DNA of 32,902 nt from Oscillibacter sp. (GTDB lineage Bacteria > Bacillota > Clostridia > Oscillospirales > Oscillospiraceae), in contig JAAWTB010000004.1 in assembly GCA_022801815.1 (NCBI GenBank), positions 1-32,902 of the forward strand, written 5' to 3'. The notes beneath the pieces were generated by a model. That model did no database searches. It was not told where the DNA came from and saw only the letters and a list, made by a program, of their open reading frames with translations. Every line of letters starts with the position of its first letter. Position 1 is the stretch's first letter. The position numbers and the translations under genes are program-made. Positions 172 to 16,385 of the stretch are shown here, piece by piece.

Positions 172-783
172 TTACATGCGCTTCCCTGCCGTTTCCGTCC
201 GCAAAGCGGCGTCGTAAAAGCTGGACTTTAGCATCCCGCAGGCATCCGCCGCCTCACACAGTGTCATTTGTTTTGCCCTCCATGCCTGGCGAAAGACCTC
301 AAAATTCTCCGGCGGAGCCTGGGCCCTGGGCCCAAAGTGGACGCCCCTGGCCTTTGCCGCGGCAATGCCCTCCATCTGCTGCTGGCGGATATTCTCCCGT
401 TCCGTCTGGGCGACATAGCTAAGAAGCTGAAGGACGATGTCCGAGATAAGCGTCCCGGTCAGGTCCCGGCTTTGCCGGGTGTCCAGCAGAGGCATGTCCA
501 ATACCACAATAGCGGCTTCGCGTTTCTTGGTGATAAGGGTCCACTGGTCCAGAATTTCCGTGTAATTCCGCCCGAGCCGGTCGATGCTTTTGACGACCAG
601 CACATCCCCCCGCCGCAGATTCCGGACAAGTCCCTGATAGCGGGGCCGCTTGAAATCCTTTCCGGACAGCTTTTCGATGATGATATGAGTTTCCCTCACC
701 CCGAAGTCCCGCATGGCGTTCAGCTGTCGAATCTCGTTTTGCTCCTGTGTGGAAACACGCACATAGCCATATGTATTTCCCAT
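172..783 (-). CDS. Serine recombinase (resolvase/invertase family), catalytic domain N-terminal, C-terminal HTH
   Basis: ORF 203 aa; YGYVRVSTQEQN catalytic Ser motif, KSIDRLGRN, ERENIRQQQMEGIAAAKARG; RBS AAAGGAGG upstream of ATG. Confidence 0.93.
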   Translation of the reverse strand: MGNTYGYVRVSTQEQNEIRQLNAMRDFGVRETHIIIEKLSGKDFKRPRYQGLVRNLRRGDVLVVKSIDRLGRNYTEILDQWTLITKKREAAIVVLDMPLLDTRQSRDLTGTLISDIVLQLLSYVAQTERENIRQQQMEGIAAAKARGVHFGPRAQAPPENFEVFRQAWRAKQMTLCEAADACGMLKSSFYDAALRTETAGKRM

Positions 784-910: not shown

Positions 911-952
911 GTGCAGCGCCGTGTACCATACCCAAGGTACACGGCGCTGCAC
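911..952. repeat. Perfect 17-bp inverted repeat with 8-nt spacer (terminator or recombination-site candidate)
   Basis: GTGCAGCGCCGTGTACC-ATACCCAA-GGTACACGGCGCTGCAC read directly. Confidence 0.9.
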
Positions 953-1013: not shown

Positions 1014-1997
1014 TCACGGCGATTCCTCCACATAAATCGGGCTGGTCAGCGCCAGCATACGCTCCCCCTGGCTTTCCCGGTAGGTTCCCCAGACCTCCAT
1101 GCGGAGCCAGCCGGAAGCGGCTGTCAAAGAAACCTTCCGCCTGCCATCTCCGCAGGGCAGCTCAGCCACCGTCCGGCCATTCATCACAAGACGGATACAT
1201 TCCGGCTTCACTTCCCAAGCGCGGTTGTTCGGCAGGGCGGAGTCAAGCCCCACGGCGGCGGAAATCTCTCCCGCCGGGACGCTCTCCCCCAGGCCGTAAA
1301 TTCTGTCCCCGTGCTTCACCGAAAATACGGGGACAGGCCCCAGGGTAACGAGACTGCGCCCTTCCCGAAGCGCGGCCATCGCGCCGCCTGTGTCCTCCGA
1401 TTCCATCCCCAGACAGGTCGCCGTCAGAAGCGGCGGATTTGACGGGTCCGAATCGGCGGCGTGCCAGTCCCTTCCGGCGCTGACGCCAAGCCGGTGCCCG
1501 GCGTTCAGCAGCGCGTCATACCACGGCAGCGCCAGGGCGTTCTTTGTCCGCTTGTGGGGGTTCTCTTCAGACCAAACCTCCACATAGCTCACAAGGTCCC
1601 ACCGCGTCACCTTAAAATCCCAATGGCACCCGCACATCAGCGGCGCGCCAACCTCGCAGGGGTGTGCGATTCCGGCGATGCCGCCCGCCTCCCGAATTTC
1701 CATCAGCGCATGGTCGATGGTATCCGGCGTTACAAACCGCCAGTCGACGTACCTCTTGCATCCAAGCACCAGGAGATGCCCATAAAAGGTTGTCCACTCA
1801 ATTCCGGGGATGACAATCATCCCCGTCTCCGCCAGCAGTTCCGGGGTAACCTCGCCAACAGCCGTAAACACATTGTGGTCCGTCAGCGCCGCGCCGCGGT
1901 AGCCGTAGGCCGCGCAGGAACGAAGCAGCTCGCCGGTCAGGAACCGGCCGTCGCTGTGCCGCGTGTGGTTGTGCAGCTCAAACGGCAGGTATTTCAT
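1014..1997 (-). CDS. PHP-domain metal-dependent hydrolase, CehA/McbA-like
   Basis: ORF; FELHNHTRHSDG and LTDHN PHP motifs, GIEWTTFYGHLLVLG, GIAHPCE. ATG at 1997, overlapping the upstream gene by 20 nt. Confidence 0.88.
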   Translation of the reverse strand: MKYLPFELHNHTRHSDGRFLTGELLRSCAAYGYRGAALTDHNVFTAVGEVTPELLAETGMIVIPGIEWTTFYGHLLVLGCKRYVDWRFVTPDTIDHALMEIREAGGIAGIAHPCEVGAPLMCGCHWDFKVTRWDLVSYVEVWSEENPHKRTKNALALPWYDALLNAGHRLGVSAGRDWHAADSDPSNPPLLTATCLGMESEDTGGAMAALREGRSLVTLGPVPVFSVKHGDRIYGLGESVPAGEISAAVGLDSALPNNRAWEVKPECIRLVMNGRTVAELPCGDGRRKVSLTAASGWLRMEVWGTYRESQGERMLALTSPIYVEESP

Positions 1998-2466
1998 CAA
2001 CGCGCTCGCCCCCTTTCAGTCCAAATACCGCGACGTGGCAGTCAACCGTGCCCGCCACCACCGCCTGCACGTGCAGCACAACCCGCCACGGTCCCTTACC
2101 CGCCCTGCGGCGGAAGAAACCAGGGCTTGCTTCCCTTTCCGACACCAGGATGGTCTGGTCCGGCGGATGCCGGTGGGCGCAGCCCACATACTCCTCTCCG
2201 CAGTCCAGCGAAAGTGTGACAAAGTTGAGCAGGCACGGATACTCCTCCATATCCTTCTCGGTCAGCGTCACGCCAGGCGGGAAATATTTCCGCACGCATT
2301 CCTCAATGCGCGGCCGGATGATTTCCGGGTCCCGCACCTCCTTCGGCCCGTAGTGCAGCCGCACGGCAAGCTGCTCGTAATCCTGCGGCAGCGTAAAGGG
2401 CAAAAGCACGTTGCGCTGTACATCCTCCAGGCAGAACACCGCCTGATACTCCATCAGTTTGTCCAT
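1978..2466 (-). CDS. Hypothetical protein, 162 aa, translationally linked to the PHP hydrolase
   Basis: ORF with ATG at 2466; overlaps the PHP gene start; no family recognised. Confidence 0.75.
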   Translation of the reverse strand: MDKLMEYQAVFCLEDVQRNVLLPFTLPQDYEQLAVRLHYGPKEVRDPEIIRPRIEECVRKYFPPGVTLTEKDMEEYPCLLNFVTLSLDCGEEYVGCAHRHPPDQTILVSEREASPGFFRRRAGKGPWRVVLHVQAVVAGTVDCHVAVFGLKGGERVDEIPAV

Positions 2467-2486
2467 AGTTGGCCCCTTTGAGAAGA

Positions 2487-2508
2487 GGGAGGGCGGTTTT
2501 GCCCTCCC
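2487..2508. terminator. Intra-operon stem-loop (8-bp perfect stem)
   Basis: GGGAGGGC-GGTTTT-GCCCTCCC between permease stop (2524) and hypothetical start (2466). Confidence 0.5.
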
Positions 2509-2523
2509 CCCTTCATTCCGTTT

Positions 2524-3369
2524 TTATTTTTCCCATTCCTTCTCTTTCAGATTTGTGTAAATATACACGCCTGCAGAAACCGAGCAGATCAGGAAAATAA
2601 TGACCGACAGCGCCGCTGCCCGCTCATAACGCTGGTACTTGTTAAACTGGTCAAACAGCGAAATGCCCAGCATCTTGGGGCTGTTGCCGCCCATCAAATA
2701 GGGCGTGGTAAAGGAGCCGACGTTGGACATAAACACGAACGTGCCCGCAATGACCACATCCTTAATCGAAAGCGGAAGGACCATGCTGGTGAATACCTTC
2801 CAGCGGTTGGCGCCAACGTCCCGGGCACCCTCAATCACGGAATCGGGAATCGCGCCCAGGCCGGCGGTGATCATCAGCGCCGCAAAGGGGATGTTGAACC
2901 ACAGATTCATCGTGATCATTCCGCTGGCATGGTACATCATGCCAAGCTCCACATCCGCGCCAAAGAGCTGGGAAATTCGATTGATCAGACCGGAATCCCG
3001 GATAATTGTAATCATTGCGTATACCGCTACCAGACCTGGCACAAAACGCGGAACCAGGTACAGGTTTCCGATGGCCCGGGAGATGGGCGACTTCACAAAG
3101 CGCAGGTACATCGCCAGCAAATACGCAATCACAATGGCCAAGAAAACGGTCACAAGCACCACATAGAGCGTGTACAGAAGGTTCCGTATCTCATTGGGCG
3201 TTGTAAAAAAGAATTTGTAGTTTTCCAGCGTAAACGTTCCGGTGTCGGGATGGGTAAAGCTCTGTTTCACCGCCTCCAGAATCGGCCACGCCACAACCGC
3301 CATTACCACCAGGAACGCGGGGAGTACCATTCCATAGGCGGCGAGCATTTTCTTGGATTTTTTGATCAT
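2524..3369 (-). CDS. ABC transporter permease (PotB-like)
   Basis: ORF 281 aa, multiple TM segments, EGARDVGANRWKVFTSMVLPLS EAA-loop motif. Confidence 0.92.
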   Translation of the reverse strand: MIKKSKKMLAAYGMVLPAFLVVMAVVAWPILEAVKQSFTHPDTGTFTLENYKFFFTTPNEIRNLLYTLYVVLVTVFLAIVIAYLLAMYLRFVKSPISRAIGNLYLVPRFVPGLVAVYAMITIIRDSGLINRISQLFGADVELGMMYHASGMITMNLWFNIPFAALMITAGLGAIPDSVIEGARDVGANRWKVFTSMVLPLSIKDVVIAGTFVFMSNVGSFTTPYLMGGNSPKMLGISLFDQFNKYQRYERAAALSVIIFLICSVSAGVYIYTNLKEKEWEK

Positions 3370-3402
3370 AATGTTTTACCTCGGACACATGATGCCGTTC
3401 TT

Positions 3403-4620
3403 TTAGCCCAGAGTGCTGATCTCGTTGTCCCAGCGCTCGTTGAAATAGGTATCCAGAGAGCCGATGGACAGCGTACGGAACTGGGTGACGTCCAGATCCG
3501 CCAGATCCTCCACGCCGTCCAGGTTCATTTCGGAAGTGTCAATCAGCGGAATCGCGGCCATCTTCTCCACCAGAATCTGCTGGGCCTCAGCGGAAAGCAT
3601 ATAGTTGATAAACTCATACGCGCCCTCCGTATTGGAGCCGAAGGTGGGAATCGCCATGCCCTGCAGGGAGCCGGTGAAGGAGGGCGTGATGGTGGTCATC
3701 TTCATGCACTGCGGAACCGTGCCGGCGGAGCGCTGAGAGAGGAGCATGTCCGCCCACATCGGGCACATATCAATTTCCTTGTTGGACAGCAGGTCCAGCG
3801 CGCCCTGGTTCTTGTTGGGATAGGTGACGGTGCCGCCGGAGGTATACATATACGGGTGGATCGAGGCCAGGAACTCGAAGCCGGAATCCCACTGCTCCAT
3901 CCATTTCTCATCGTCGCTGGACCAGGCTTCCGCATCCTCAATATAGTTGTAAACCGCTGTGCGGACAAAGGCGTCGCCCGCGCCGCCGGTGCCGGGAACG
4001 TTATACGCGAAGCGGCCCGGATTGGCTTCCATCCACGCCACCAGCTCGTCAAGCGTCTTGGGGGGAGTCGGAACCGTCTCGGAGTTATAGGCCAAAACCA
4101 CCGTCGTGCCCCGGTAAGGCTGGAGGATATCCGCGCCTTCGGCAGGCTCGGCGTCCACGCTGGCCGCGTTGGGCATCTTGGCGCTGTCCAGCGTCAGGAA
4201 AGCTTCCGTGCCAATGAGGGAGAGAAGCCTGGAAAAATCATCGCCGCCCAAGTCGATCAGGTCATAATCCGTGTTGGTCTGACCAGACTTGTAGGCCGCC
4301 GCAAGCATATCGACCATCGTCTGGGTGCCGGTGCCGGACAGCATGAAGTTCAGCTCCACCTGCACGGAATCCGACTGTGCGTTAAACGTTTCCACAAGAG
4401 TTTCAAACACCTGGCGGACATTGTCCGAACCGGTCGCCCACAGGTGCACCGTGCCGGAAGGCGCGGCGTTGGACGCACCGGCATCCGAAGCACCTGCATC
4501 TGAAGAACCCGCATTGGACGCACCGGCGTCCGAAGAGCCGCCGGAATTTCCGCCGCAAGCCGCAAGGGAAAGGACCATTAACGCGCAGAGCAAACAAGCC
4601 AATAACCGTTTCATTTTCAT
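3403..4620 (-). CDS. Extracellular solute-binding lipoprotein of ABC transporter
   Basis: ORF 405 aa; lipobox LSLAACGG, Ser/Ala/Asp-rich linker, solute-binding-protein body (LWATGSDNVRQVFETLVETFNAQ); GGAG RBS. Confidence 0.92.
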   Translation of the reverse strand: MKMKRLLACLLCALMVLSLAACGGNSGGSSDAGASNAGSSDAGASDAGASNAAPSGTVHLWATGSDNVRQVFETLVETFNAQSDSVQVELNFMLSGTGTQTMVDMLAAAYKSGQTNTDYDLIDLGGDDFSRLLSLIGTEAFLTLDSAKMPNAASVDAEPAEGADILQPYRGTTVVLAYNSETVPTPPKTLDELVAWMEANPGRFAYNVPGTGGAGDAFVRTAVYNYIEDAEAWSSDDEKWMEQWDSGFEFLASIHPYMYTSGGTVTYPNKNQGALDLLSNKEIDMCPMWADMLLSQRSAGTVPQCMKMTTITPSFTGSLQGMAIPTFGSNTEGAYEFINYMLSAEAQQILVEKMAAIPLIDTSEMNLDGVEDLADLDVTQFRTLSIGSLDTYFNERWDNEISTLG

Positions 4621-4638
4621 CTCAATTACTCCTTTTCA

Positions 4639-5604
4639 TCAAAACATATGGTACTTCTCGAATTTGAGGCCTATCTTGTCCCCCAGATCCAATCGGTCGC
4701 TCACCTCCCTGTCCAAAAAGCACTTGACGACTGCTTCCCCGCATTGAACATGCACTTCCACATAGTGTCCGAGAACCATGATCATCCGCACTGTGCCGTT
4801 GACGTCCGCTTCGCCTTCGGGCACAATGGCCACGTCCTCCGGGCGGACCGCAAGGGTTTTTCCCTCTTTATCAATGAAATTCATCTCGCCGATGAAGGAC
4901 GCCACATATTTTGACGCCGGGTTGTCATAAATTTCCGTCGGGCTGCCCACCTGCTCGAACACGCCCTTATTCATAACCACAATCCGGTGGGAGAGGGCCA
5001 TGGCCTCCTCCTGGTCGTGGGTCACGAATACCACCGTAATTTGCAGCTCGGACTGAATCCGCTTTAGTTCCTCCCGCATCTGCTGGCGGATCTTTGCGTC
5101 AAGGGCAGAAAACGGCTCATCCAGCAGCAGCACCGCCGGCTGGAGCATCAGCGACCGTGCAATGGCAATTCGCTGCTGCTGTCCGCCGGAGAGCTGTCCA
5201 GGGTATTTCTTCTCCGTTCCGCTCATGGACACCAGCGCCAAATGCTCTTGAACCGAGGCGTCGATTTCCGCTCTTGACCGCTTGCGCAGCTTCAGGCCGA
5301 ACGCGAGATTCTCATAAACCGTCATATGGGGCCAGAGGTTATAGCTCTGGAACACCATTGCTGTCGGCCGCTTCTCCGGCGGGAGTCCGATGATGGACTT
5401 CCCGTCAATCAGGATGTCTCCGGAAGTCGTGTCCAAAAAACCGCCCAGTGTACGCAGAATGGTGGATTTTCCGCAGCCGGAGGGGCCCAGCAGCGTGATG
5501 ATCTCCCCCTCGTAAATTTTCAGGTTGATATGCTCAACGCCGTCTCCGTTGCCATATTTTTTTGACATATCACGGATTTCCAGTTTGACATTTCGTTCTG
5601 ACAT
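4639..5604 (-). CDS. ABC transporter ATP-binding protein (PotA/FbpC-like, TOBE C-terminus)
   Basis: ORF 321 aa; Walker A GPSGCGKST, LSGGQQQR signature, Walker B LLLDEPFSALD, H-loop VTHDQEEA. Confidence 0.96.
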   Translation of the reverse strand: MSERNVKLEIRDMSKKYGNGDGVEHINLKIYEGEIITLLGPSGCGKSTILRTLGGFLDTTSGDILIDGKSIIGLPPEKRPTAMVFQSYNLWPHMTVYENLAFGLKLRKRSRAEIDASVQEHLALVSMSGTEKKYPGQLSGGQQQRIAIARSLMLQPAVLLLDEPFSALDAKIRQQMREELKRIQSELQITVVFVTHDQEEAMALSHRIVVMNKGVFEQVGSPTEIYDNPASKYVASFIGEMNFIDKEGKTLAVRPEDVAIVPEGEADVNGTVRMIMVLGHYVEVHVQCGEAVVKCFLDREVSDRLDLGDKIGLKFEKYHMF

Positions 5605-5663
5605 TGCTATCCTCCCAACACTCGTGTATGGAAATAATCAAGAAACCTGACATTTCAAGGGCC

Positions 5664-5707
5664 TTTGCAAGACGCAAAGCGTCTTGCAAAAAAGGGATAT
5701 CCCTTTT
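5664..5707. repeat. Two adjacent palindromes in an intercistronic gap
   Basis: TTTGCAAGACGC-AAA-GCGTCTTGCAAA (5664-5690) abutting AAAAGGGATATCCCTTTT (5690-5707). Confidence 0.85.
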
Positions 5708-5727
5708 GCCCTCTTCGCCGCGGGGAT

Positions 5728-6570
5728 TCACTTCATCTTAAAGCCGCCCGCAATGGCCTCCGGACCAATGTATTTCCGCATGGCGAAAATCAAAACGATG
5801 GACGGAATCAGAAGCAGAATGGAAAAGACCGCGCCGGCCTGCCCCGGGTAGTCCAGGATGATTCCGTACATTTCCACCGGCATGGTCTTGATGCGGGCCA
5901 GGCCCACCAGCATGGTGCCCTGGGCCTCTTCCATGGACCCAAGGAAGGTGTACAGCGTCGCCACCGCGATACCCGGCGTCGCCATGGGAAGCGTTACCTT
6001 AAAAAATGTACGGATGGGACCAGCGCCCACGTCCCGGGCCGCCTCCTCCTGCTGGCGGTGCACCGAACGGAACGCGCTGGCCGGCAGCCAGACCATAAAC
6101 ATCATGGAGTTGATCATGTGTATGATGACAACGCCCGGCAGCGACCCCATCAAGTTATAGCGGTAGAACAAGATGGCGATGGAGGTGTAAATTCCAAGCT
6201 TCGGAAATGCATTTGTCAGCAGGAACGACAGCATAAACAGCTTGCGCCCGGGAAATTTGAACCGGGCAATGGAGTACGCCGCCGGAATGCACAGCACCAT
6301 GGAGCATATTGTTGTAATAATCGCCACCATATAGGACTGCACAATTGACGAGCGCAGGCTTTTCTGCTGCAGCACAAAGTCCCACCACTTTAAGCCCCAC
6401 TCCTGCGGAATCACCGCAGGGGATTCGTAGATGTCCGCAAACGCCAGCATGAACATGTTCAGCAGCGGACCATAGAAAAACAGCAGAAACGCCGCCAGAA
6501 CAATGAACTCCCAAAAGTTTTTCTTCCCAACTGCGTGGTAGAAACGTCTGGGGTTCAGGTATTTGAACAT
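5728..6570 (-). CDS. ABC transporter permease (PotC-like)
   Basis: ORF; AARDVGAGPIRTFFKVTLPMATPG EAA motif; start set at ATG 6570 (MFKYLNPRRF) preceded by GGAAGGTGAAAGG. Confidence 0.9.
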   Translation of the reverse strand: MFKYLNPRRFYHAVGKKNFWEFIVLAAFLLFFYGPLLNMFMLAFADIYESPAVIPQEWGLKWWDFVLQQKSLRSSIVQSYMVAIITTICSMVLCIPAAYSIARFKFPGRKLFMLSFLLTNAFPKLGIYTSIAILFYRYNLMGSLPGVVIIHMINSMMFMVWLPASAFRSVHRQQEEAARDVGAGPIRTFFKVTLPMATPGIAVATLYTFLGSMEEAQGTMLVGLARIKTMPVEMYGIILDYPGQAGAVFSILLLIPSIVLIFAMRKYIGPEAIAGGFKMK

Positions 6571-6697
6571 ATACCTTTCACCTTCCTTTCCTTTTTTGAA
6601 AAACCGCGCTTGCAAAGAGCTGCCGGCCATGTTTCACGGCGCGGTATTTTCCCCAGAGAACAACATCAAAGGAGCCGCATGTTGAAAGCGGGCCCGT

Positions 6698-7378
6698 TCA
6701 CCGCCCCTCTCTCCGGAGGGCCAGAGCCGAGGCGATGCGGCGGGTGGTGACATTTTGAACCCCGCGCTGGAAAAACCACTCCAGAGCCTCGCTTTCATCA
6801 ACAGTCCAGGCCGAAACGCCGATCCCCTTCCTGGAAAGAAATTCAATAAACCGGCGCGTCACCAGGCCATGATATATGTTGGCCGTTTGGATCCCCGCTG
6901 CCAGGCAGGCCTCGCAGATTCTGTCCGCCGCCTCCAGATCAAAATCGGGGATATCCCGGTAATTCCAGTACAAATTCGGGACATACCCCTCCACATCCAA
7001 ATAAACGTCGGCAATCTTCAGCAGATCCGAACGGCACGTCAGCGCGGCGACGTCAAAAGACCCGGAGAAAATCAGCCGTCCTCCCAATCCCGCGCGTTCC
7101 GCCAAATGGGAAACCTCCACCTCCAGCCCGCGCTCCTTCAAGTCGCAGTTGATCTTCATCGAAGGATGCTCCGCCACGCGAAGGAACGTATCCCAAAGCG
7201 TGGGGGCGGAGGCTCCGGCGGCGTCGTGTCCCAGCGCAAGAACGCCTTGCGAATTGCGGCGCACGTCAACCTCCAAGGCGTCCGCATCGGAACGCAGCGC
7301 GTAGTCTACAAATTCAAGGCTGTTGTCCGGCCTGTTGTCCGCACCGGAATGCGCTGTTAAAAGTACGGTTTTTCCCAT
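6698..7378 (-). CDS. Glycerophosphodiester phosphodiesterase family protein (divergent active-site motifs)
   Basis: AHSGADNRPDNSLEF ... ALEVDVRRNSQGVLALGHD ... GVSAWTVDE GDPD layout; start ATG 7378 with GAGAGGTGG RBS; ORF open up to GTG 7474. Confidence 0.85.
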   Translation of the reverse strand: MGKTVLLTAHSGADNRPDNSLEFVDYALRSDADALEVDVRRNSQGVLALGHDAAGASAPTLWDTFLRVAEHPSMKINCDLKERGLEVEVSHLAERAGLGGRLIFSGSFDVAALTCRSDLLKIADVYLDVEGYVPNLYWNYRDIPDFDLEAADRICEACLAAGIQTANIYHGLVTRRFIEFLSRKGIGVSAWTVDESEALEWFFQRGVQNVTTRRIASALALRREGR

Positions 7379-7470
7379 GAGTGCCCACCTCTCTTTGATT
7401 TTTGCCTGCGATCTGAGCCAAAGCCAACGCTTCTCCAGCATTTCCCTGCCCGGATCTCCCATAAAAGCGC

Positions 7471-7998
7471 TCACCTATCCGGGCTCTCGCCGTTGGGAAG
7501 GGCGCTGTAAAACGCCTGCTCATCATCCGGCGAGTCAAACGCAGCAAGAGGAATGACCACGACCTCTTTCTCCGCAGTGGTAAGGAACAGGTGCTTTTTG
7601 GCGCGCACCGTGCTGCTGATTCCGCTCAGTGGGATTTTCTGCTCTCCGGAAGCATCCGAGATTTTCAGCTCGTCATCGGAAAGGAAAATCGTGCGCTCTC
7701 CCATTGGCAGCGAATCCGCTTTCTTATCCACCATGCGCCGCACCCATTTTTCAATAGTACTCTTTTCCTGATTCGGCACATACAGCACAAAGAGCAGCGC
7801 GGCAAGCAGAAAAAGCGCCATTCCGCCCGGCGTAACGCCGCCGCGGCCAGCCCCAACAGCCAAGCCAAGGGCAATCAGCGCCCCCGCGCCGGCACACTGG
7901 AGCAGGCGGACCCGGCGGATGAACGCGGGATCATGCCGGGCATAAAACAGGTTGAACGCAATGTAATCGTCCTCGCTCAGGGTATATACTACCTTCAT
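7471..7998 (-). CDS. YcxB-like membrane protein
   Basis: MKVVYTLSEDDYIAFNLFYARHDP...RRVRLLQ, two hydrophobic segments, C-terminal domain with LFLTTAEKEVVVIPLAAF; start ATG 7998. Confidence 0.7.
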   Translation of the reverse strand: MKVVYTLSEDDYIAFNLFYARHDPAFIRRVRLLQCAGAGALIALGLAVGAGRGGVTPGGMALFLLAALLFVLYVPNQEKSTIEKWVRRMVDKKADSLPMGERTIFLSDDELKISDASGEQKIPLSGISSTVRAKKHLFLTTAEKEVVVIPLAAFDSPDDEQAFYSALPNGESPDR

Positions 7999-8005
7999 TT
8001 TCTCA

Positions 8006-9058
8006 CTACTCCACCAGCTCTGCCAGGGACGCGGCTCTGCCATGCGTAATATAGAAGCGGGCGGCAGCGTTGGCAAAGGCGATCCGGTCCTCGTCGCCAA
8101 GGCCCTGGACCGTGGCAAAGCAAAAGGCGCCGTTGAAGTTGTCTCCCGCCCCTGTTGAAATTTTCGGCGCCGGGACAAAGTCGGAATGCCGGCGGGCCAA
8201 GCCGCGGCCAGTGAGCAGATAGGTTTCCCGAATGGTGTGGATAATAACCTCATCTATCCCATAACCGGCGCAAAGCTTCTCCGCAATGCCGGGCAATGCC
8301 TGCACATTTGGAAAGAGCTGTTCCGCAATGACGCGGGCCTCATTTTCGTTCAGACTCAAGACCGTTTTGCGGCAGGCGGAAAATCTCCCCATCAATCGCA
8401 GGACAGCCTCCAGCTCCTCCACCGCTTTCCGGGAAACGTCACAGAGGTCGAAAAAGGCATACCGTTCCCGGTCCGGCGGATAGCTGCGCACCGCTTCCAG
8501 CGTGCGTTCCCACAGCCCGTGAGCGAAGGAAAGTTCGCTCCAGTTCACCAACGCCAACAGATCGGGACTTGTGAGAAGCTCCTCTGCCCTGCCTCCGGCG
8601 GCGGCGTCAACCAAACGCCACACATCCTCAGAAAAGGCGCAGTCCGCAGCAAGCAGAATCTTGCCGTCGCCAAACTCCAGGCAGGTGGACTGTCCCGGCG
8701 GCGCGAAGGGATAGAGCTTGCAGGGCATCTTCGCAAACACGGGGTCCGGCCTGCCCGGCTGTCCCAGCATACCGAGACACGATACATCCGCCCCCAGCCT
8801 CCCCGCCGCACAGGACAGATAAGGAAGGTTCCCCCCCAGGCGGCGCGCCACCGGCTCCAATTCGATGGAACAGCTTTTTTCCGCCTTGCCAATTAAAAAC
8901 TCCCCAAATTCCCGAATCGTCCCAAAGGGCACCGCCGGAGTTCCGGCTGCCGCCGCGTGCCGCAGCGGCTTTACAATGGTGTCCACAAACCCGTCGAAGC
9001 CGACGGTGATCCGCTTTCCCGTCAAGACGCGCTCATTTAGAGCGCCCTGCCAGTTCAC
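8006..9058 (-). CDS. PfkB-family carbohydrate kinase
   Basis: ORF 350 aa; GFDGFVDTIV, GGNLPYLSCAAGRLGADVSCLGMLG, STGAGDNFNGAFCFA; GTG start in GTGA overlap with upstream gene. Confidence 0.9.
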   Translation of the reverse strand: MNWQGALNERVLTGKRITVGFDGFVDTIVKPLRHAAAAGTPAVPFGTIREFGEFLIGKAEKSCSIELEPVARRLGGNLPYLSCAAGRLGADVSCLGMLGQPGRPDPVFAKMPCKLYPFAPPGQSTCLEFGDGKILLAADCAFSEDVWRLVDAAAGGRAEELLTSPDLLALVNWSELSFAHGLWERTLEAVRSYPPDRERYAFFDLCDVSRKAVEELEAVLRLMGRFSACRKTVLSLNENEARVIAEQLFPNVQALPGIAEKLCAGYGIDEVIIHTIRETYLLTGRGLARRHSDFVPAPKISTGAGDNFNGAFCFATVQGLGDEDRIAFANAAARFYITHGRAASLAELVE

Positions 9059-9774
9059 AGCATGGCCGCAGCGGCTTTATCCGCCACGACGACACAGCTC
9101 GGGTGCGTCTGCAAAATAGAAGCGGGCACTTGGTTCGTGACGTCTCCCCGCACCGCTTCGCGAAGGATGTTTGCCTTGTGCTCGCCGCTGGCCAGCAGCA
9201 GCACCGTCTCCGCAGCCATGATCTGGCGGATGCCTTGGGAAATTCCGTACTCAGGGTGAAACTTCTCTCCAAAATACTTGGGCATGACCCGCTTGGTTGT
9301 CTCCGACAGGGGAATAACATGGGCGTTCAGATCAAAGCGCACGCCCTCTTCATTAAATCCCAAATGGCCGTTCATGCCGATTCCCAGCACCGAAAGAGTC
9401 AGCGGGCCATGGGCGGCAATGAAGCCGTCCAGTGAGCGGCACTCCTCCTCTATGTCTGCGGCGCCGTTGATGACATGCGCCTGAAGAAAGGGTATGCGCA
9501 TGCGGCCCAGCAGCTCCTTCTGGTTAAAGAGACCGCAGGAACCCTCGTCTTCCCGGGACAAACCGGCCCACTCGTCCAAAGAGACGTAATACGCGCGGGA
9601 CGGGTCAATCTGCCCGCTGTTCACCATGTCCGCAAACCGGTGGACAAAGCCCAAAGGCGTCTCTCCTCCTGCAAAGCTAAGCAGGGCGTCCGGCTTCCGG
9701 AGAAGCGTTTCCGCCGCGATTCGCGCCGCCGTCCGGCTCATCTCCTCGTAATTCTCACAAATGATCAGTTTCAT
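9055..9774 (-). CDS. Glucosamine-6-phosphate deaminase/isomerase-like protein (NagB family)
   Basis: LSFAGGETPLG, YYVSLDEWAGL, LGIGMNGHLGFNEEG; start ATG 9774 with AAAGGTGG RBS. Confidence 0.9.
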   Translation of the reverse strand: MKLIICENYEEMSRTAARIAAETLLRKPDALLSFAGGETPLGFVHRFADMVNSGQIDPSRAYYVSLDEWAGLSREDEGSCGLFNQKELLGRMRIPFLQAHVINGAADIEEECRSLDGFIAAHGPLTLSVLGIGMNGHLGFNEEGVRFDLNAHVIPLSETTKRVMPKYFGEKFHPEYGISQGIRQIMAAETVLLLASGEHKANILREAVRGDVTNQVPASILQTHPSCVVVADKAAAAML

Positions 9775-9787
9775 GTTTGACCACCTT

Positions 9788-10687
9788 TTAGGCAATGATG
9801 CCCACTTCCCGCAGATACGTCAGATTGCGCTTGGCCGATGCAAACGCCTGGGCGTTGGTGGCACGGGGCATATCCGACTCCACGATGCCAATGCCGTGAA
9901 ATTCGATTTCCTCCAGCACGCGGCGGATTTCCTGAAACGAGATGACGCCGTCGGGCAAATCGCACATGACGTCGATGTCAAACGCCTCGTCGCTGGTCAG
10001 GTTCTCCCTTTGCACCCTTGCGAAAACCGCGCCGTCCATCTGCTTGAAGTGGAGGTAGGCAATTCTCTTAGCAAAGCGCCGCAGGAACGCGGGAGCAGAC
10101 GGCTCCTCCGGCTGGCCGTTTCCGTTGGCATACGCATGGTGTCCCGTGTCAAAGCAAAGATCCAGGCCGGTTGCGTCCAGCAGCCGGACAATTTCCTCTT
10201 CATATTCAACCATGGTCTTTATATGGGGGTGGTAAACGACGTCGATGCCAAATTCCCGTTTCGTAAACTCCCCCATATCCCGGACTTTCCGGAAAAAGCA
10301 ATCCCACTCACGTGGCGTAAGCGCCTTCTTTTTTTCGCTGCGCGCCCCCACATCCGACTCATCCATCGTCACCAGATACTTCGCGCCCAGCGCCGTCAGG
10401 CGGCGGCAGAGGGCCTCTGTCCGGGGCCGGAAGGCCGCGAAATCCGCGCCTTGGTCAAAGGCATAGCACGCCGTCCCCGCGCAGACCGACAGGTTCCGCT
10501 TGCCCAGCTCCTCCAGCAGGCGGGACTCCTCCGTAGGGAGATACCCGTCCGGGCCAAGCTCCAGCGCCTGATAGCCGGCCTCCGCAGCCTGGTCCAAAAA
10601 CAGCTCCCAGGGCGTGCCGGAGGGCGTGCCGTCCGCATACCAAACGCCCCAGGAGCACGGAGCTGTGGCGATTTTCACCTCAAACAT
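9788..10687 (-). CDS. Sugar phosphate isomerase/epimerase, TIM barrel (IolE/inosose-dehydratase-like)
   Basis: ORF 299 aa; IATAPCSWGVWYADG, FDTGHHAYANG, LHFKQMDG, GIGIVESDMP. Confidence 0.88.
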   Translation of the reverse strand: MFEVKIATAPCSWGVWYADGTPSGTPWELFLDQAAEAGYQALELGPDGYLPTEESRLLEELGKRNLSVCAGTACYAFDQGADFAAFRPRTEALCRRLTALGAKYLVTMDESDVGARSEKKKALTPREWDCFFRKVRDMGEFTKREFGIDVVYHPHIKTMVEYEEEIVRLLDATGLDLCFDTGHHAYANGNGQPEEPSAPAFLRRFAKRIAYLHFKQMDGAVFARVQRENLTSDEAFDIDVMCDLPDGVISFQEIRRVLEEIEFHGIGIVESDMPRATNAQAFASAKRNLTYLREVGIIA

Positions 10688-10696
10688 ACTTCCGCC

Positions 10697-11779
10697 TCAC
10701 TTTCCGCCCATCTTGCGGACGATCTCACGAAACAGCTCCAAATCCGCCACGGCATCCTCCAGGTTTGTCTTCGGCTGCTTCCCTGTGGAAATGCAATCCG
10801 AGAACAACGCCAGCTCCGTCTGGAAGGCATCCCGGAAATCCGGTCCGTAAACCGTGGTCTTGGTGTCCTCGCCGCCAGATTCCGTTACGGTAACGGCGGC
10901 GGGCTGATAGCGCAGATACGGCGTCTCGTACTTTACATGGATTTTTCGCGTTTTCTGGAACACCTCGATGGCTGCGTCAAACTGCACGATATCCTGGTTG
11001 TTGACCAGCTCGTAAGTCCCCAGGAAGCCGCCCTCAAACTCCATGACAATTACCACATGCTCGCCGCCGCTGGCCGTGGCCACCGAAAGCACTTTCTTCG
11101 GCACGCCGAACAGCTCCCGCACCGCCGCGAAGGAATGGCAGCCCAGGCCGGTCATCATCTGATACGTTTTGCGCTGCTCGTCCGTGGCGTCCGCGCCGAT
11201 GGCCTCATCCAGCTGGGCGCGGCGGCGGCGGCCACCCTCTTGAATGACCTCTGCGGGGACATCCTTCGGGTAAAACAGCCGTCTGGTCTGCCGCAGGAAG
11301 AAGGGCGCCTCCAGAATAATATCGCGAAAACGCAGGTATTCGGTTTTCATCGGCGTGCTTTCCAGGATCTCCTTCGCCTTCAGGTACGGACCCGCATACC
11401 GCCGCATATACCCCACCATGACGATATGATCAGGGTACTGCTTTTTCAGCTCAATCAGCTCGTTCAGCTCCCGCAGGCACAGCGTAACCGGTTTTTCCAC
11501 AAATACATGACGGCCCGCTTTCAGCGCCCGCTTTACATATTCCCCGTGGTACTGGTCGGGAGAGAGAATGAGAACCGCGTCAATATCCGCCTGTTCAATC
11601 ATCTCCAGGGCATCCCCATAGCCCTCTTTTACGTTGTACTCCTTTTGGATAAATGAAACCAAGGACGGCGAAACATCGGATACCGCCGCGATCGTATAGG
11701 TCTCCCACAGATTTTGCAAAATAGGCAGATGCATGCATTGGGATACCTCTCCCAGACCAATAACTCCAACCCGAATCAT
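10697..11779 (-). CDS. Gfo/Idh/MocA family oxidoreductase
   Basis: ORF 360 aa; VGVIGLGEVSQCMHLP Rossmann motif, AVLILSPDQYHGEYVKRALKAGRHVFVEKPV. Confidence 0.95.
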   Translation of the reverse strand: MIRVGVIGLGEVSQCMHLPILQNLWETYTIAAVSDVSPSLVSFIQKEYNVKEGYGDALEMIEQADIDAVLILSPDQYHGEYVKRALKAGRHVFVEKPVTLCLRELNELIELKKQYPDHIVMVGYMRRYAGPYLKAKEILESTPMKTEYLRFRDIILEAPFFLRQTRRLFYPKDVPAEVIQEGGRRRRAQLDEAIGADATDEQRKTYQMMTGLGCHSFAAVRELFGVPKKVLSVATASGGEHVVIVMEFEGGFLGTYELVNNQDIVQFDAAIEVFQKTRKIHVKYETPYLRYQPAAVTVTESGGEDTKTTVYGPDFRDAFQTELALFSDCISTGKQPKTNLEDAVADLELFREIVRKMGGK

Positions 11780-11792
11780 ACTGACTCCTTTC

Positions 11793-11825
11793 GAAACAAT
11801 ATCAAATTTGTTTCTTAATGTTTCA
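11793..11825. promoter_or_regulatory. Candidate operator cluster (GAAACAA/TTGTTTC half-sites)
   Basis: GAAACAAtatcaaaTTTGTTTC followed by TGTTTCA; matching inverted copy GAAACAAATTT at 11957. Confidence 0.4.
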
Positions 11826-11945: not shown

Positions 11946-11969
11946 GAAACAAAAATGAAACAAATTTTG
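11946..11969. promoter_or_regulatory. Candidate operator, second cluster
   Basis: GAAACAAAAATGAAACAAATTTTG, located just upstream of the regulator -35 box and just upstream of the operon -35 box. Confidence 0.4.
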
Positions 11970-11987
11970 TGGCTTTCGTCAAAGGCT

Positions 11988-12015: not shown

Positions 12016-12130
12016 AAGAACAGGCTTCTCGTGTCAAACGTCCGGGAACAAGCATGCCAGATTGCCCGGCGCGTCCAAGGCAGAACGGCGCGAATCAAAG
12101 GAAACGTTCGGAAGGAGTGTAGGGGAACCC

Positions 12131-13114
12131 ATGACCATCCGTGAATTTGCCGCTTTATGCGGCGTATCTCCCGCCACGGCATCCCGGTTTTTCAGCGGGC
12201 AGGGCCGCGTCAGCGAGGAAAAGCAGCTTATCATGAAACGCATGGCAAAGATCAGCGGCTATGAGCCGCCGGCGTCTTACCGCAGCCGCCGCCAGCTTCG
12301 CAGCGCCATTTTTGCCATTCTGCCGGACTTCCGCCACACCTTCAACAACAACATGGTGGAAATTCTGCGCGTGCAGTCCGCGGAATATGGCCGCCAGCTT
12401 ATGGCTGTCCAATCCGACGGCGCGGCCAACGAGACGCTTCTCGCACTCATCATCGCGGCGCTGCCTCTTGGCGTGATTCTCTTGGGCGACCATCAGAACG
12501 ACCGCATTCCCGTCGAACTGGTACACCGCAGCATCCCCGCCATCCACTGCGGCGGCCTGTCGCTTACTCGCGGAGTTTCCGCCGTCCATATTGACAACAT
12601 GCTGGCCGCATATGACGGAATGCGCCATCTTATCCGCTTGAATCACAAGTGTATCGGTCTTTTAAGCGACGACACCAGGGCAATCAGCACGGACTTTCAG
12701 CGAATCAGCGGATGCCGCCGGGCAATGGATGAGGCCGGGCTTGCCCTTCCGGATTCCCGCATTGCCTATGGGGAAACCACCTTTGACGGCGGCTACCGGG
12801 CCATGTCCATGTTACTCCGGCAGGCGCCGGAGGTCACCGCCGTATTTGCCTTCAGCGACGATATGGCGGCAGGGGCCGCCGCCCGCCTTTGGGAAGAGGG
12901 GAAGCGCATCCCGGACGATATATCCCTGCTTGGTTTTGACGATAACGAGTGCGCCCGGCAGCTGCGGCCCGCTTTGACCACCATCCGCCAGCCCCACGAA
13001 CAGATTGCGCATCTCTCCATTACGTATCTTCTTGAACACACCCGCTTTCAGGAAGAAACCTCCCTTACGCTGCCCCATGAGCTGATTCAGCGGCAAAGCT
13101 GCCGGGCTCTGTAA
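12131..13114 (+). CDS. LacI-family transcriptional regulator
   Basis: MTIREFAALCGVSPATASRFFSGQGRVSEEKQ HTH plus periplasmic-binding-like domain (LLGFDDNECARQLRPALTTIRQP); start ATG 12131 with GGAAGGAG upstream. Confidence 0.93.
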   Translation: MTIREFAALCGVSPATASRFFSGQGRVSEEKQLIMKRMAKISGYEPPASYRSRRQLRSAIFAILPDFRHTFNNNMVEILRVQSAEYGRQLMAVQSDGAANETLLALIIAALPLGVILLGDHQNDRIPVELVHRSIPAIHCGGLSLTRGVSAVHIDNMLAAYDGMRHLIRLNHKCIGLLSDDTRAISTDFQRISGCRRAMDEAGLALPDSRIAYGETTFDGGYRAMSMLLRQAPEVTAVFAFSDDMAAGAAARLWEEGKRIPDDISLLGFDDNECARQLRPALTTIRQPHEQIAHLSITYLLEHTRFQEETSLTLPHELIQRQSCRAL

Positions 13115-13347: not shown

Positions 13348-13375
13348 ATGGAAGTGCTGGATGGGCTGAACATTG

Positions 13376-13424
13376 GCGGGGGCATTTGAGACGATTTCTT
13401 TTGGAACGTCTCAAGTACCCCCGC
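13376..13424 (+). terminator. Long stem-loop (18-bp stem, 2 imperfect positions, 13-nt loop) followed by TGTTTTC
   Basis: GCGGGGGCATTTGAGACG ... CGTCTCAAGTACCCCCGC. Confidence 0.55.
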
Positions 13425-13479
13425 TGTTTTCATATCCCATACAGGCCGGTTTGGTAAAACCCGGGCCGCTCTTTACCGC

Positions 13480-13900
13480 CTGCGCTGAAGCGGCTTCGCG
13501 GCGGGCAATCAGCGTCAAAAGAACCAGTTTATGGCCGCTTCCTTTGCGCCCGACGGCTTCGACTATCTGCGGGACAGCCCCCTACCGCACCGAGACCAAC
13601 CCCTTGGCGGTGGAACGGGGGACTTGCTCCGGCTCCTTTGAGAACGGGAACAACCACTGTGTTGTCCTGCAAAAGCGGCTGGCCCCGGGAGAGAAGACCC
13701 GTCTCCTCTGGATGCTGGGGGAGGGGGACCTGGAGGAGGGACGGCGCGCCCGGGAAAAGTACTGCGATGTTTCTGCGGTGAACGCCGCCTTTCAGGACCT
13801 GGCCCGGTACGGGGTGCGCCCCCAATTCGGCGGACTGCTGATCGACCCCTGCCTCCCGGCGGACTGGAAGTGCTTTGAACTTACGCGGGTCTGGCAGGGG
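13480..13900 (+). pseudogene. GH94 glycoside phosphorylase remnant (short upstream piece joined to the C-terminal tail)
   Basis: KNQFMAASFAPDGFDYLRDS / YRTETNPLAVERGTCSGSFENGNNHCVVLQKRLAPGEKTRLLWMLGEGD..REKYCDVSAVNAAFQDL joined to YGVRPQFGGLLIDPCLPADWKCFELTRVWQG; frameshift in C-run 13578-13582. Confidence 0.8.
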
Positions 13901-14250
13901 GATCTGCCCGCCGTGCTGGACGCCGCCCTGGCCCGGAAGGGCAGTCCCCAGGTACACCTGACGGAGGAGATGACGTATGTCAACGCCTATTTGTACATCG
14001 TCACTCAGCGCTACGGCAAGAGGCTGATGGTGGAGGCGGACCTGCCCGACGAGCTGATGAATTGCCTGGTCCCCCCGGCTCATTCTCCAGCCGGTGATTG
14101 AGAATGCGGTGGAACACGGCATCGGCCCCAGCGGGCAGGGGCGGGTGACCCTTCGGGGGTTCCGGCAGGAACACTTCCTCATTTTGGAGATCGAAAACGA
14201 CGGCGGGCTGTCCCCCCAGGACGAGGCCCACATTGCGCAGAAGGAGAGCG
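13901..14250 (+). pseudogene. YesM-type sensor histidine kinase remnant (C-terminal part), fused in frame to the GH94 tail and frameshifted
   Basis: QVHLTEEMTYVNAYLYIVTQRYGKRLMVEADLPDELMNCLVP then, in another frame, PRLILQPVIENAVEHGIGPSGQGRVTLRGF..LEIENDGG. Confidence 0.82.
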
Positions 14251-14269
14251 GAAATACAAATAAAACCAT

Positions 14270-14885
14270 GGAGGTTGTATCACGAAAAAAACGGACTTCT
14301 TGCGTTGACTCTTGTCAGTGCGTTGATTCTGAGCCTGCTGGCCGGCTGCGGCGGAGACAGCCAGCCCGGCGGTTCAAGTTCCGGAGGCGGCAAAAGCAGC
14401 GGCAGCGCTTCGGCCAGTTCCGGGGTGGAACTGAATGTGGTTACATCTTACGGCGGCGACGGCAACCGGAAACAGTATGAAGCCGCCGTGGCCTCCTATG
14501 AGGAAACCACCGGCAACACCATTCTGGACGCCGACGCCAAGACCGTTCAGCTCTTTGGCGACGCCGCCTTCCTGATTGACGGTTCCTGGAAGGTCAATTG
14601 CTTTGTGGACAACTGTTCCGATACCCTCAGCGACTACGCCATCTCCTACGGCCCCGCCAGAGGGAGCGCGCGGCCTCTGAGGCCATCGGCGGCATCTCCA
14701 TGGCCTGCTTCATCACCAAGAAAGCTTGGGACGGCCCCGCCAAGCACTGTCAAGCACATGACCTCTGACGAGATGATGAGCACCTTTGTCACCACCGAGG
14801 TCACCGCCCTGAAAAACGGCGCCTCCCCCGCCGGGCTGAACGCGCTCCAGCAGGCTGCCGTCGATGCCAATGCCAACATCACCGG
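14270..14885 (+). pseudogene. Sugar ABC transporter solute-binding lipoprotein remnant
   Basis: Lipobox LSLLAGCGG; NVVTSYGGDGNRKQYEAAVASYEETTGNT joined to KTVQLFGDAAFLIDGSWKVN; later KHMTSDEMMSTFVTTEV; RBS GGAGG followed by ACG rather than ATG. Confidence 0.8.
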
Positions 14886-15075
14886 CGTGCTGAAGGTCTT
14901 CGACCTGCCTTGGGTCATGTTCGGGGCGGGAATGCCCCAGGACCGGGGATGGCTCACCGGCACTTATATGTATGACCAGACCTTCAACCGGGGCAATGTG
15001 GACTATGGGTCCGCCATCGCCATCCTCATTGTGGTGCTGTGCGTGCTGTTTTCCAACGTAGCCAACCGGGTCTAA
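14886..15075 (+). pseudogene. Sugar ABC permease remnant (MalF-type C-terminus), fused in frame to the lipoprotein remnant
   Basis: LKVFDLPWVMFGAG...TYMYDQTFNRGNVDYGSAIAILIVVLCVLFSNVANRV. Confidence 0.78.
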
Positions 15076-15116
15076 GCCCCGGGACGGCATTTAAGAGGGG
15101 GACCCGCTGTAAAAAA

Positions 15117-15550
15117 ATGACGCCCGCCAAGGCGGGAACCTATGTAATTCTCACCTTCTGGGCCCTTACCGCCCTGTGCCCCTTCGTCTGGGTTATCCTC
15201 AACTCCTTTCGGGAGAAAGGCCTGATCCGCAAGGACTCCTTTTCCATCCCCACGGCGGGAAACGGCTTCACGATGGATAACTGCGCCAAGGCCATGGAGC
15301 GTTTTGATTTCAGCAACGCCTACCTGAACAACCTGGCGGTCTCCATTTCCGTCACCATCGCGGTGGCAATCATTGCCGGCTTTGCCGCCTGCGGGCCGGT
15401 CCGCTACCGCTTCAAACTGCAGGCAACCTGTGCTTCGCCATTATTGTGCTCATGGGCTTCATTGAGTCGGTTCCCATAGAGCCGGAGGAGAGCGCCTACA
15501 TAGATGGCTGCCATGTGTTTCAAGTGTATTTCCACATCATCAAGGGGTAG
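15117..15550 (+). pseudogene. Sugar ABC permease remnant (MalG-type), internally deleted and frameshifted
   Basis: MTPAKAGTYVILTFWALTALCPFVWVILNSF..YLNNLAVSISVTIAVAIIAGFAA..VRYRFK then another frame AGNLCFAIIVLMGFIESVPIEPEESAYIDGCHVFQVYFHIIKG*. Confidence 0.8.
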
Positions 15551-15553
15551 GGC

Positions 15554-15583
15554 TTGCGTCTCCGCCTCTGTTTCAGGTATAAT
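15554..15583 (+). promoter_or_regulatory. Putative promoter of the YesN-type regulator pseudogene
   Basis: TTGCGT - 18 nt - TATAAT, followed by a 13-bp perfect stem-loop (15593-15621) and GGGAGG RBS. Confidence 0.45.
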
Positions 15584-15644
15584 AAGGAAAACCGGTTTCC
15601 CCGCCGCCGGCGGGGAAACCGCACACCCCGGGAGGTAAACGCGC

Positions 15645-16385
15645 ATGTACAAGGTGGTTCTCATCGACGACGAGGCCATCATTGCGGAGGGTTTTCGAAA
15701 GGTGGTGGACTGGTCCGCCCGCAGCTGTCAGGCTGCAGCCCTGGCCCAGGATGCCGTATCCGGAGCGCAAGCTATTCGGGAATACCGACCGGACATCCTC
15801 TTTACCGACATCAAGATACCCGGAGAGAATGGCCTGACCATGCTGGCCGGTCTGCGGGGGGTGTTTTCCTGGATGCAGATCGCCGTTCTCACCGGCTACC
15901 GGGACTTTGAGTACGCCCAACGGGCCATCCGCTTAGGCGTGGTCCGGTTTTTGCTCAAGCCCTCCAAAATGGACGAGCTGACTGTGGCGCTGGAGTACAT
16001 GACCGGCGTGTTGGACCGTCTGCCGCCGGAGGCGGATCCGGATTCCCAGCCGGGGAGCGAGGACCCCAGCAGCTTTTTGGTCCGCCAGGCTTAGGCCTAT
16101 ATCACAGGGCACTGCGCCCAGCGGCCGTCCCTCCAGGACATGGCCGACCACTGCTATGTCAGCCGGCGGCGCCTGTCCAAGCTGCTCAACAAGCGCCTGA
16201 ATCAATCCTTCTACGATCTGCTGAATACGGTACGCGTTCGCCAAGCCAAACGGCTGATGGACAACCCGGCTCTGCGCATCAGCGAGGTGGCCGAGGGGGC
16301 GGGCTATTTCGATACCTCCCATTTCTCCCGGGTGTTCAAAAAGCTGGAGGGTATCTCCGCCGGAGAAAGGCGCAGCCTGCATTAA
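15645..16385 (+). pseudogene. YesN-type response regulator (receiver plus AraC HTH) split by in-frame TAG at 16092-16094
   Basis: MYKVVLIDDEAIIAEGFRKVVDW..DILFTDIKIPGENGL..VLTGYRDFEYAQRAI..LVRQA*AYITGHCAQRPSLQDMADHCYVSRRRLSKLLNKRL..FDTSHFSRVFKKLEG; both ORFs share one frame. Confidence 0.85.

Follow-up and report, generated by a model that had tools for sequence, protein, structure and literature searches.

The operon described here, twelve minus-strand genes of a gut-type Firmicute in a window of 32,902 nt (the whole stretch of DNA analysed), unites two gene sets that are normally found apart and suggests an undescribed route for the use of glycerophosphate-linked sugars. It is made of two conserved modules. 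Module A (8006-11779) encodes a Gfo/Idh/MocA dehydrogenase (MocA), an IolE-like enzyme, a NagB-like protein and a kinase of the ketohexokinase (Khk) family, and module B (1014-7474) encodes a GDPD, an Fbp/Pot-type ABC importer and a hydrolase split into U162 and PHP. The original prediction of this gene set and its minus-strand order was borne out, since all open reading frames are present and profile searches confirm their identities (Table 1). The genes are tightly packed, with intergene spacings of −20 to +127 nt. Both overlaps that had been pointed out are exact, namely GTGA at 9058-9055 between the NagB-like and Khk genes and 20 nt (1978-1997) between U162 and PHP, whose ATG lies at 1997. 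The YcxB-like gene, located between the modules, overlaps the GDPD gene by 4 nt, is separated from the Khk gene by 7 nt and starts at 7998, not at 8253; the NagB-like gene probably starts at 9774, and permease B (permB) probably at the ATG at 6570 of a frame that opens at 6630. Rfam and tRNA scans gave no match. The twelve genes may be carried on a single transcript. A paper describing the twelve-gene set was not found in the open-access literature searched, in keeping with its earlier designation as a candidate undescribed operon.

Table 1. Features of the operon and its surroundings in the window
Feature	Position	Strand	Basis
Candidate operon terminator	911..952	-	17-bp-stem hairpin directly after PHP stop; T run on + strand side
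CehA/McbA-type PHP metallohydrolase	1014..1997	-	NF038032 226 bits, cut-off 80
U162, N-terminal beta-sandwich split from PHP hydrolase	1978..2466	-	Fused with PHP in L082, L084, L085
ABC permease A	2524..3369	-	PF00528; PhnU2/PotH-like
Lipoprotein solute-binding protein (SBP, P0004)	3403..4620	-	SBP_bac_8; PRK11622-like; Fbp/Pot-type fold
ABC ATPase	4639..5604	-	PhnT2/PotA-like, TOBE domain
ABC permease B (permB)	5728..6570	-	BPD_transp_1 (PF00528); likely ATG 6570
GDPD, HSG variant subfamily (P0007)	6698..7474	-	PF03009 41.6 bits, cut-off 23.6
YcxB-like protein (P0008)	7471..7998	-	PF14317 30.4 bits; ATG 7998
PfkB-fold kinase, prokaryotic ketohexokinase (Khk) family (P0009)	8006..9058	-	PF25270 105.4 bits, cut-off 35
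NagB-like deaminase/isomerase, altered phosphate loop (P0010)	9055..9774	-	Glucosamine_iso
IolE-like TIM-barrel enzyme (P0011)	9788..10687	-	AP_endonuc_2; TIGR04379 123.2 bits, cut-off 290
Gfo/Idh/MocA dehydrogenase (P0012)	10697..11779	-	GFO_IDH_MocA; invariant EKP, GLGCH motifs
Palindrome GAAACAATATCAAATTTGTTTC, candidate LacI operator	11793..11814	.	Found once in window (chance expectation 0)
Second GAAAC-N6-GAAAC site	11946..11970	.	Near-identical counterpart in L107 LacI-MocA intergenic region
LacI-family regulator	12062..13114	+	ORF opens 12062; divergent from MocA

Module B is present in 15 of the 87 genomes of family f3, which appears to be Butyricicoccaceae, and more distantly related versions occur in two further families. 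A glpP antiterminator and/or a glpA-type G3P dehydrogenase is encoded within about 6 kb at 11 of the 15 loci, which makes uptake of glycerophosphodiesters or G3P the likeliest role of the module; a GDPD lies inside or near the cluster at 11 of the 15. At one locus (L002) the module is followed by MttB, EutB and EutC, which are enzymes of headgroup catabolism. In the distant relatives the importer and U162+PHP are still paired, with a GDPD and a LacI gene added in L126, and several module-B loci lack either PHP or GDPD. Since importer, GDPD and PHP recur across genera beside genes of the G3P regulon, the evidence favours glycerophospho-compounds over other classes of substrate, and we consider it likely that module B imports glycerophosphodiesters or G3P. 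In the window, the G3P genes are unlinked to the operon, and the glpP of the source genome is found on another contig.

The importer had been called PotABCD-like. Fbp/Pot-type is the better name, given that the best model for the ATPase, which also matches PotA models, is PhnT2 (355 bits, under the cut-off of 457.7), and that a fold search with the predicted SBP structure (pLDDT 77.9, moderate confidence) returned STM0429 (4r6y) as top match and AfuA (4r73) at rank 50. We take STM0429 to be PhnS. The fold likeness of the SBP model covers binders of iron, polyamines, opines and sugar phosphates, including FbpA and PotF. All importer matches fall under equivalog cut-offs, as in the case of the permease with PhnU2 (81 bits against 593). 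A PDB sequence search with the SBP found no close relative (best 1elj, E 5e-6), and NCBIfam gave no UgpB match for it; permB is 93% identical to its counterpart in L003. Among transporters of the broad Fbp/Pot type, some carry 2-AEP. Others carry sugar phosphates, as AfuABC does (PMC4546632).

The Ugp system (UgpB/UgpAEC with the GDPD UgpQ, in E. coli and others) resembles module B in encoding an ABC importer together with a GDPD that has no obvious export signal, and in supplying G3P metabolism. It differs in that its importer is CUT1 and its GDPD HRG, whereas those of the window are Fbp/Pot-type and HSG, and in that the window operon adds a PHP hydrolase and a joined sugar cassette. To our knowledge, AfuABC has no GDPD/PHP partnership. 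This hexose/heptose-phosphate importer shares with module B the Fbp type, an organic phosphate substrate and the fold likeness of its SBP, but it has low sequence similarity to the window importer and takes sugar monophosphates (PMC4546632). GpxB, a G1P/G3P importer, is similarly a non-CUT1 ABC importer for glycerol phosphates, but it is reported to belong to family 3.A.1.9, clade D-III (PMC12718374). The 2-aminoethylphosphonate transporters PhnSTUV and PhnT2U2 provide the best model for the ATPase and permease A and, through STM0429, the top fold for the SBP, but the window proteins stay below their equivalog cut-offs and no phosphonate catabolism genes were identified nearby.

The GDPD retains the catalytic histidine pair and the acidic metal ligands (AH(S)G, ExD, HD), and its AHSG, EVDV, GHD and NCDLK motifs are kept in the aligned relatives. 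The HRG motif with the phosphate-contacting arginine is absent, being replaced by AHSG in the window protein and all aligned module-B orthologs and by AHTG in L126, and the third metal ligand is Asp for Glu (NCDLK). Because the HRG arginine is missing, activity on glycerophosphodiesters is only putative. The YcxB-like gene adjoins module B in L077 too, with 41% identity.

The 162-aa protein, formerly listed as a separate unknown, is a split-off domain of the PHP hydrolase, as U162 and PHP form a single open reading frame in three relatives. Profile searches gave no family match for U162 and a PDB sequence search no close relative; with its AlphaFold2 model (pLDDT 92.4), a PDB fold search found nothing below E=1e-3, collagen-binding/PPC-like beta-sandwiches being the best. 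A weak U162 match in L004 is accompanied by neither a PHP nor a transporter match. The metal-site motifs of the PHP protein (HNHTRHSDG, TDHN, AHP, GRDWH) are all found, and against PF02811 it scores 23.6 bits, below the cut-off of 26.4. CehA itself is a carbamate hydrolase, and PHP similarity alone is therefore insufficient for a phosphoester substrate such as had been assigned to CehA-like proteins.

Elsewhere, module A supplies the enzymes of CUT1 sugar operons, behind the CUT1 importer. One of these loci includes a sulfatase whose C-terminus is of the N-sulphoglucosamine type, and the accompanying CUT1 SBP weakly matches NgcE models; both point to amino sugars, and we give an amino sugar an even chance of being the substrate of module A. 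The NagB-like protein remains below the TIGR00502 equivalog cut-off (164 against 236.9 bits). In the class-A NagB alignment (n=12 sequences, 11 of them spanning the phosphate loop), the loop reads GG(D/E)TP versus the canonical TG(S/G/N)(T/S)P, Lys stands for Arg172, and the catalytic residues LDE, NGH and FNE are retained. Such a combination of kept catalytic residues and altered phosphate site suggests that the enzyme probably acts before the kinase, on a still unphosphorylated (amino) sugar. The STGAGD motif is invariant among Khk orthologs; more distant homologs of Khk from the class, at 30-36% identity, have unrelated neighbourhoods and were set aside as evidence.

The IolE-like protein, with conserved CFDxGHH, YLHxK and ESD/EQD motifs, has 3cny as best PDB match (E 1.2e-14), and the MocA gene adjoins the gene of this metal TIM-barrel fold. 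The reaction of MocA is uncertain because the catalytic Asp expected of inositol dehydrogenases is missing. Precedent for a MocA enzyme acting with a TIM barrel comes from glycoside oxidation/beta-elimination (PMC10628242), where the GlycDH-AtOGE-AtHYD and DgpA/CGE operons pair an oxidoreductase with a metal TIM barrel that resembles sugar phosphate isomerases; unlike there, the pair in the window is followed by NagB-like and Khk-type proteins, and its eliminase role is putative.

Among the genomes searched, both modules occur complete in one run in the window only. Conserved co-occurrence is seen for module A and for module B, each of which recurs, but not for the full twelve-gene set. A near relative, L107, has a partial version, in which a second MocA-IolE pair, a LacI gene opposite it (64% identity to that of the window) and operator-like sites, among them a GTTTC repeat resembling the GAAACAATATCAAATTTGTTTC palindrome, lie beside module B; the same genome has a CUT1 cluster with MocA-NagB-Khk on another contig (L108). 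From these likenesses, the two sites between the LacI and MocA genes of the window may be operators. Modules A and B are found together in 6 of the 87 f3 genomes (Fisher p=0.0028, confounded by shared ancestry). Because the complete run is confined to the window, whose source genome (189 contigs) is 65% complete, joint function rests on one case and the partial L107. That the modules serve one conjugated substrate in this organism is accordingly a tentative proposal, to which we give somewhat less than an even chance.

The reading that we favour, still short of an even probability, is a LacI-controlled operon for the use of a glycerophosphate-linked (amino) sugar. The intact diester would be imported by the transporter of module B and cleaved in the cytosol by the HSG-type GDPD into G3P and the free headgroup, with U162+PHP as an additional phosphoesterase acting on related esters. 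G3P would enter the ordinary G3P metabolism of the host, and the headgroup sugar would be handled by module A: MocA may oxidise a hydroxyl, making possible an elimination or isomerisation by the IolE-like enzyme; the NagB-like enzyme would then open, isomerise and possibly deaminate the sugar, and the Khk-type kinase would phosphorylate the resulting ketose. Of the import and dismantling of a phosphate-linked sugar proposed originally, the glycerophospho class is supported, while a single conserved twelve-gene pathway is not.

Two independent catabolic units might instead share one promoter after a chance horizontal assembly, module B working on G3P or on common diesters that derive from phospholipids (GPE, GPC, GPG) and module A on a free sugar or amino sugar that enters through a different importer. 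We regard this as a serious competitor, with a probability of roughly a third. Both modules also exist singly, complete and conserved, in other genomes; in the order sample, a class-A NagB is missing from several genomes that carry module B, and module A occurs in G674 with no module B. Module B is moreover nearest to that of another family and was probably transferred into this genus. However, the window lacks the CUT1 importer of the CUT1-type module-A loci, GDPD and module B occupying its place, the junctions around the YcxB-like gene and between NagB and Khk are overlapping or very close, and L107 keeps MocA-IolE and LacI beside module B despite the CUT1 cluster elsewhere in its genome. 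The fragmented, incomplete source genome, the affinity of module B to another family and the lack of a U162 (P0002) match in the other congeners searched could also come from faulty assembly or binning of a metagenome-assembled genome. Genes of the same contig are 67-97% identical to and syntenic with those of congeneric genomes, by which the contig belongs to the genus and a binning error is unlikely; as the modules also meet through close-packed genes in one continuous reading direction and L107 has a related neighbourhood, we consider such an artefact very improbable.

Substrate identity offers two further alternatives. The inositol-type enzymes of the original prediction would suit a glycerophosphoinositol that is imported and cleaved by GDPD, its inositol being degraded by the IolG/IolE-like and then the NagB-like and PfkB proteins; indeed, of the NCBIfam models, IolG and IolE score best for the MocA and IolE-like proteins, and inositol dehydrogenases and IolE are among their closest entries in the PDB. 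Yet the scores miss the cut-offs (IolG 114/355, IolE 123/290 and, for P0009, IolC 19/300 bits), no IolB or IolD match exists among the operon families, MocA lacks the expected Asp, and module A elsewhere accompanies CUT1 importers and amino-sugar-type genes. Classical inositol catabolism as in the myo-inositol iol operon, which the window resembles in its IolG-like and IolE-like members but not in IolB, IolC and IolD, was rejected, and the glycerophosphoinositol route is improbable. Hardly less so is an importer for 2-aminoethylphosphonate, polyamines or ferric iron with incidental GDPD and PHP genes: the PhnT2 and PotA matches of the ATPase and the SBP fold likeness to STM0429, FbpA and PotF speak for it, but every match is under its equivalog cut-off, no phosphonatase or polyamine enzymes were identified among neighbouring families, and glpP/glpA, GDPD and U162-PHP recur alongside in several genera.

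More speculatively, and in our estimate rather unlikely, module B may represent a further, Fbp/Pot-type class of glycerophosphodiester importer, separate from both CUT1 Ugp and GpxB, with its own HSG GDPD and split CehA-type hydrolase. In this organism it would have been joined to a new amino-sugar pathway, whose NagB-like enzyme works on unphosphorylated sugar ahead of a ketohexokinase, so that glycerophospho-(amino)sugars could be used. If the favoured reading of the operon is right, it would provide a role for an importer class without a prior link to it in the open-access papers found, and functions for four loosely annotated groups, namely the HSG-type GDPD, the CehA-type PHP with its split domain, the NagB-like subfamily and the PF25270 kinase. 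It would also explain how some gut-type Firmicutes exploit water-soluble residues from membrane lipids or glycans carrying glycerophosphate.

The operon is real and well-formed. All genes named in the original prediction are present in the window, with the family of each confirmed by profile search; the two gene junctions that it quoted are exact and the remaining intergenic distances lie between -4 and +127 nt. Three gene starts are corrected (YcxB to 7998 and, probably, NagB to 9774 and permB to 6570). The cluster is bounded by a hairpin at one end and by a divergent LacI gene at the other, and a single transcript is plausible.

Features of the window and of loci in other contigs
Feature	Position	Remark
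Serine recombinase/resolvase gene	window 172-783	just past operon 3' end, at contig edge
Hairpin	window 911-952	strong; bounds one end of gene cluster
Overlapping frames	window 13373-16094	right of LacI; several, plus strand, without family match; may be a decayed gene
Response-regulator receiver domain	window 15645-16094	within the preceding stretch
SUFU-domain protein	window 20810-21619	bacterial chromosome; ~90% identity to its counterpart in a congener (L119)
Split DpaA-type gene	L003:12150-18621 (= L107:7655-14126)	has the appearance of a skin-like element within the gene for dipicolinate synthase
MttB-family methyltransferase, EutB, EutC	L002:12928-17981	downstream of module B
Canonical HRG-type GDPD	L127:3229-4854	adjoins glpP; window's own genome (C150), on another contig
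Sulfatase	L110:4184-5641	N-sulphoglucosamine sulphohydrolase C-terminal domain
NagB-like match of module A	L052 (G570:C2:399026-399757)	one internal TAG stop

Comparison of the window proteins by tblastn with loci fetched from other genomes separates the cluster into two units, namely module A (MocA-IolE-NagB-Khk) and module B (permB-ATPase-SBP-permA, mostly with GDPD and/or the U162-PHP pair). Module B is found in 12 of the 394 genomes sampled from the order, the window's own included, in 15 of the 87 genomes of family f3 and, in a more distant form, in two genomes of another family in the phylum. Family f3 is probably Butyricicoccaceae; its members include the genomes behind L002 (Butyricicoccus sp. 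Marseille-Q5471, on what seems to be the contig of G570) and L003 (G732, apparently G758). The NagB-like subfamily of module A occurs in 11/87 f3 genomes. In the best-kept loci (L089, L109, L110 and L111) module A forms the tail of a larger operon that also encodes a two-component system, a CUT1 importer (binding protein, two permeases and ATPase) and a DUF624 protein; L108 shares this CUT1 arrangement, with IolE not detected, and in L113, more loosely L091, an MFS transporter and a SIS-domain protein replace the CUT1 set. Both modules are present in 6 of the 87 f3 genomes (Fisher p 0.0028, a figure inflated by relatedness), on separate contigs or far apart, and among the loci compared only the window holds both complete in one run. 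The general reading of the original prediction, that a phosphate-linked sugar is taken up and broken down, stands; co-occurrence is conserved within each module but not for the whole set, so that two separately conserved, joined modules take the place of a single conserved unit.

For module B, we infer a role in the import of glycerophosphodiesters or glycerol-3-phosphate (G3P). By our count, in 11 of the 15 f3 genomes a gene for a G3P antiterminator (glpP-type), a G3P dehydrogenase (glpA-type) or both lies no more than ~6 kb from module B, in both transcriptional arrangements and across four genera; a GDPD gene accompanies the cluster, inside it or close by, in 11. A HAD-IIA phosphatase is added in L082, L084 and L085, and the MttB, EutB and EutC genes of L002 are those expected if ethanolamine or methylated headgroups were set free. 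In L126, from a distant family, U162, PHP, GDPD, LacI, permB, ATPase, SBP and permA form one cluster. In the literature consulted, the glycerol phosphate importers described are those of UgpB (CUT1) and GpxB (family 3.A.1.9) (PMC12718374). The importer of module B is not Ugp, since the window SBP resembles the PRK11622 model and folds of the Fbp/Pot type; the nearest characterised importer in kind is AfuABC, which imports sugar phosphates (PMC4546632). All aligned module-B GDPDs carry AHSG for AHRG and NCDLK at the third metal ligand, normally Glu, with the ExD and HD motifs kept, and by alignment are a variant subfamily of putative activity. The 162-aa protein (U162), previously left without assignment, is most plausibly an N-terminal domain split off from the CehA-type hydrolase, given its in-frame fusion to the PHP domain in L082, L084 and L085 and a confident AlphaFold2 beta-sandwich (pLDDT 92.4).

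In module A, the NagB-like protein and 11 orthologs differ consistently in alignment from ordinary NagBs of the order: their sugar-phosphate-binding loop is one Gly longer and carries an acidic residue, and Lys replaces Arg172, the catalytic residues being kept. From these residues the substrate is probably an unphosphorylated sugar, which would place the Khk-type kinase after the NagB-like protein. MocA retains the lysine of EKP and a histidine and lacks the usual aspartate, its GLGCH motif being invariant; in the IolE-like protein the metal and substrate motifs are intact. Pairs of an oxidoreductase and a metal TIM barrel are known to cleave glycosides via oxidation and beta-elimination (PMC10628242). 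The L110 sulfatase, whose gene lies within the CUT1 operon of module A, and the weak NgcE-like matches of the CUT1 binding protein point to amino sugars. Inositol (iol) identities were rejected for the operon enzymes, the IolG, IolE and IolC cut-offs all being missed by wide margins.

From TE rightward, the genes up to the end of the contig show synteny with three genomes of the same genus, which places the contig in the Oscillibacter sp. genus. P0002 (U162) was not found in any other congeneric genome searched, window module B groups with L003 inside f3 (support 99/100), and third-position GC over the operon (0.66-0.76) is lower than in most flanking chromosomal genes; the simplest reading is a transferred accessory region. 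A partial counterpart, L107, lies on the same contig as L003: a LacI gene (64%) diverges from MocA-IolE (78% and 81%), and module B follows the strand of MocA at a distance of ~8 kb; another contig of that genome carries MocA-NagB-Khk in a CUT1 cluster. In both window and L107, the region between LacI and MocA contains GAAAC/GTTTC repeat sites, candidate LacI operators, among them a near-identical element, GAAAC-N6-GAAACAAA-TTTGT. Elsewhere on the L107 contig, a DpaA-type N-terminal part and a dehydrogenase-like C-terminal part flank genes for a chemotaxis receptor and a large serine recombinase, and a DpaB-like flavoprotein adjoins.

All together, the operon joins a conserved importer module, probably directed at glycerophosphodiesters, to a sugar cassette that is conserved on its own.
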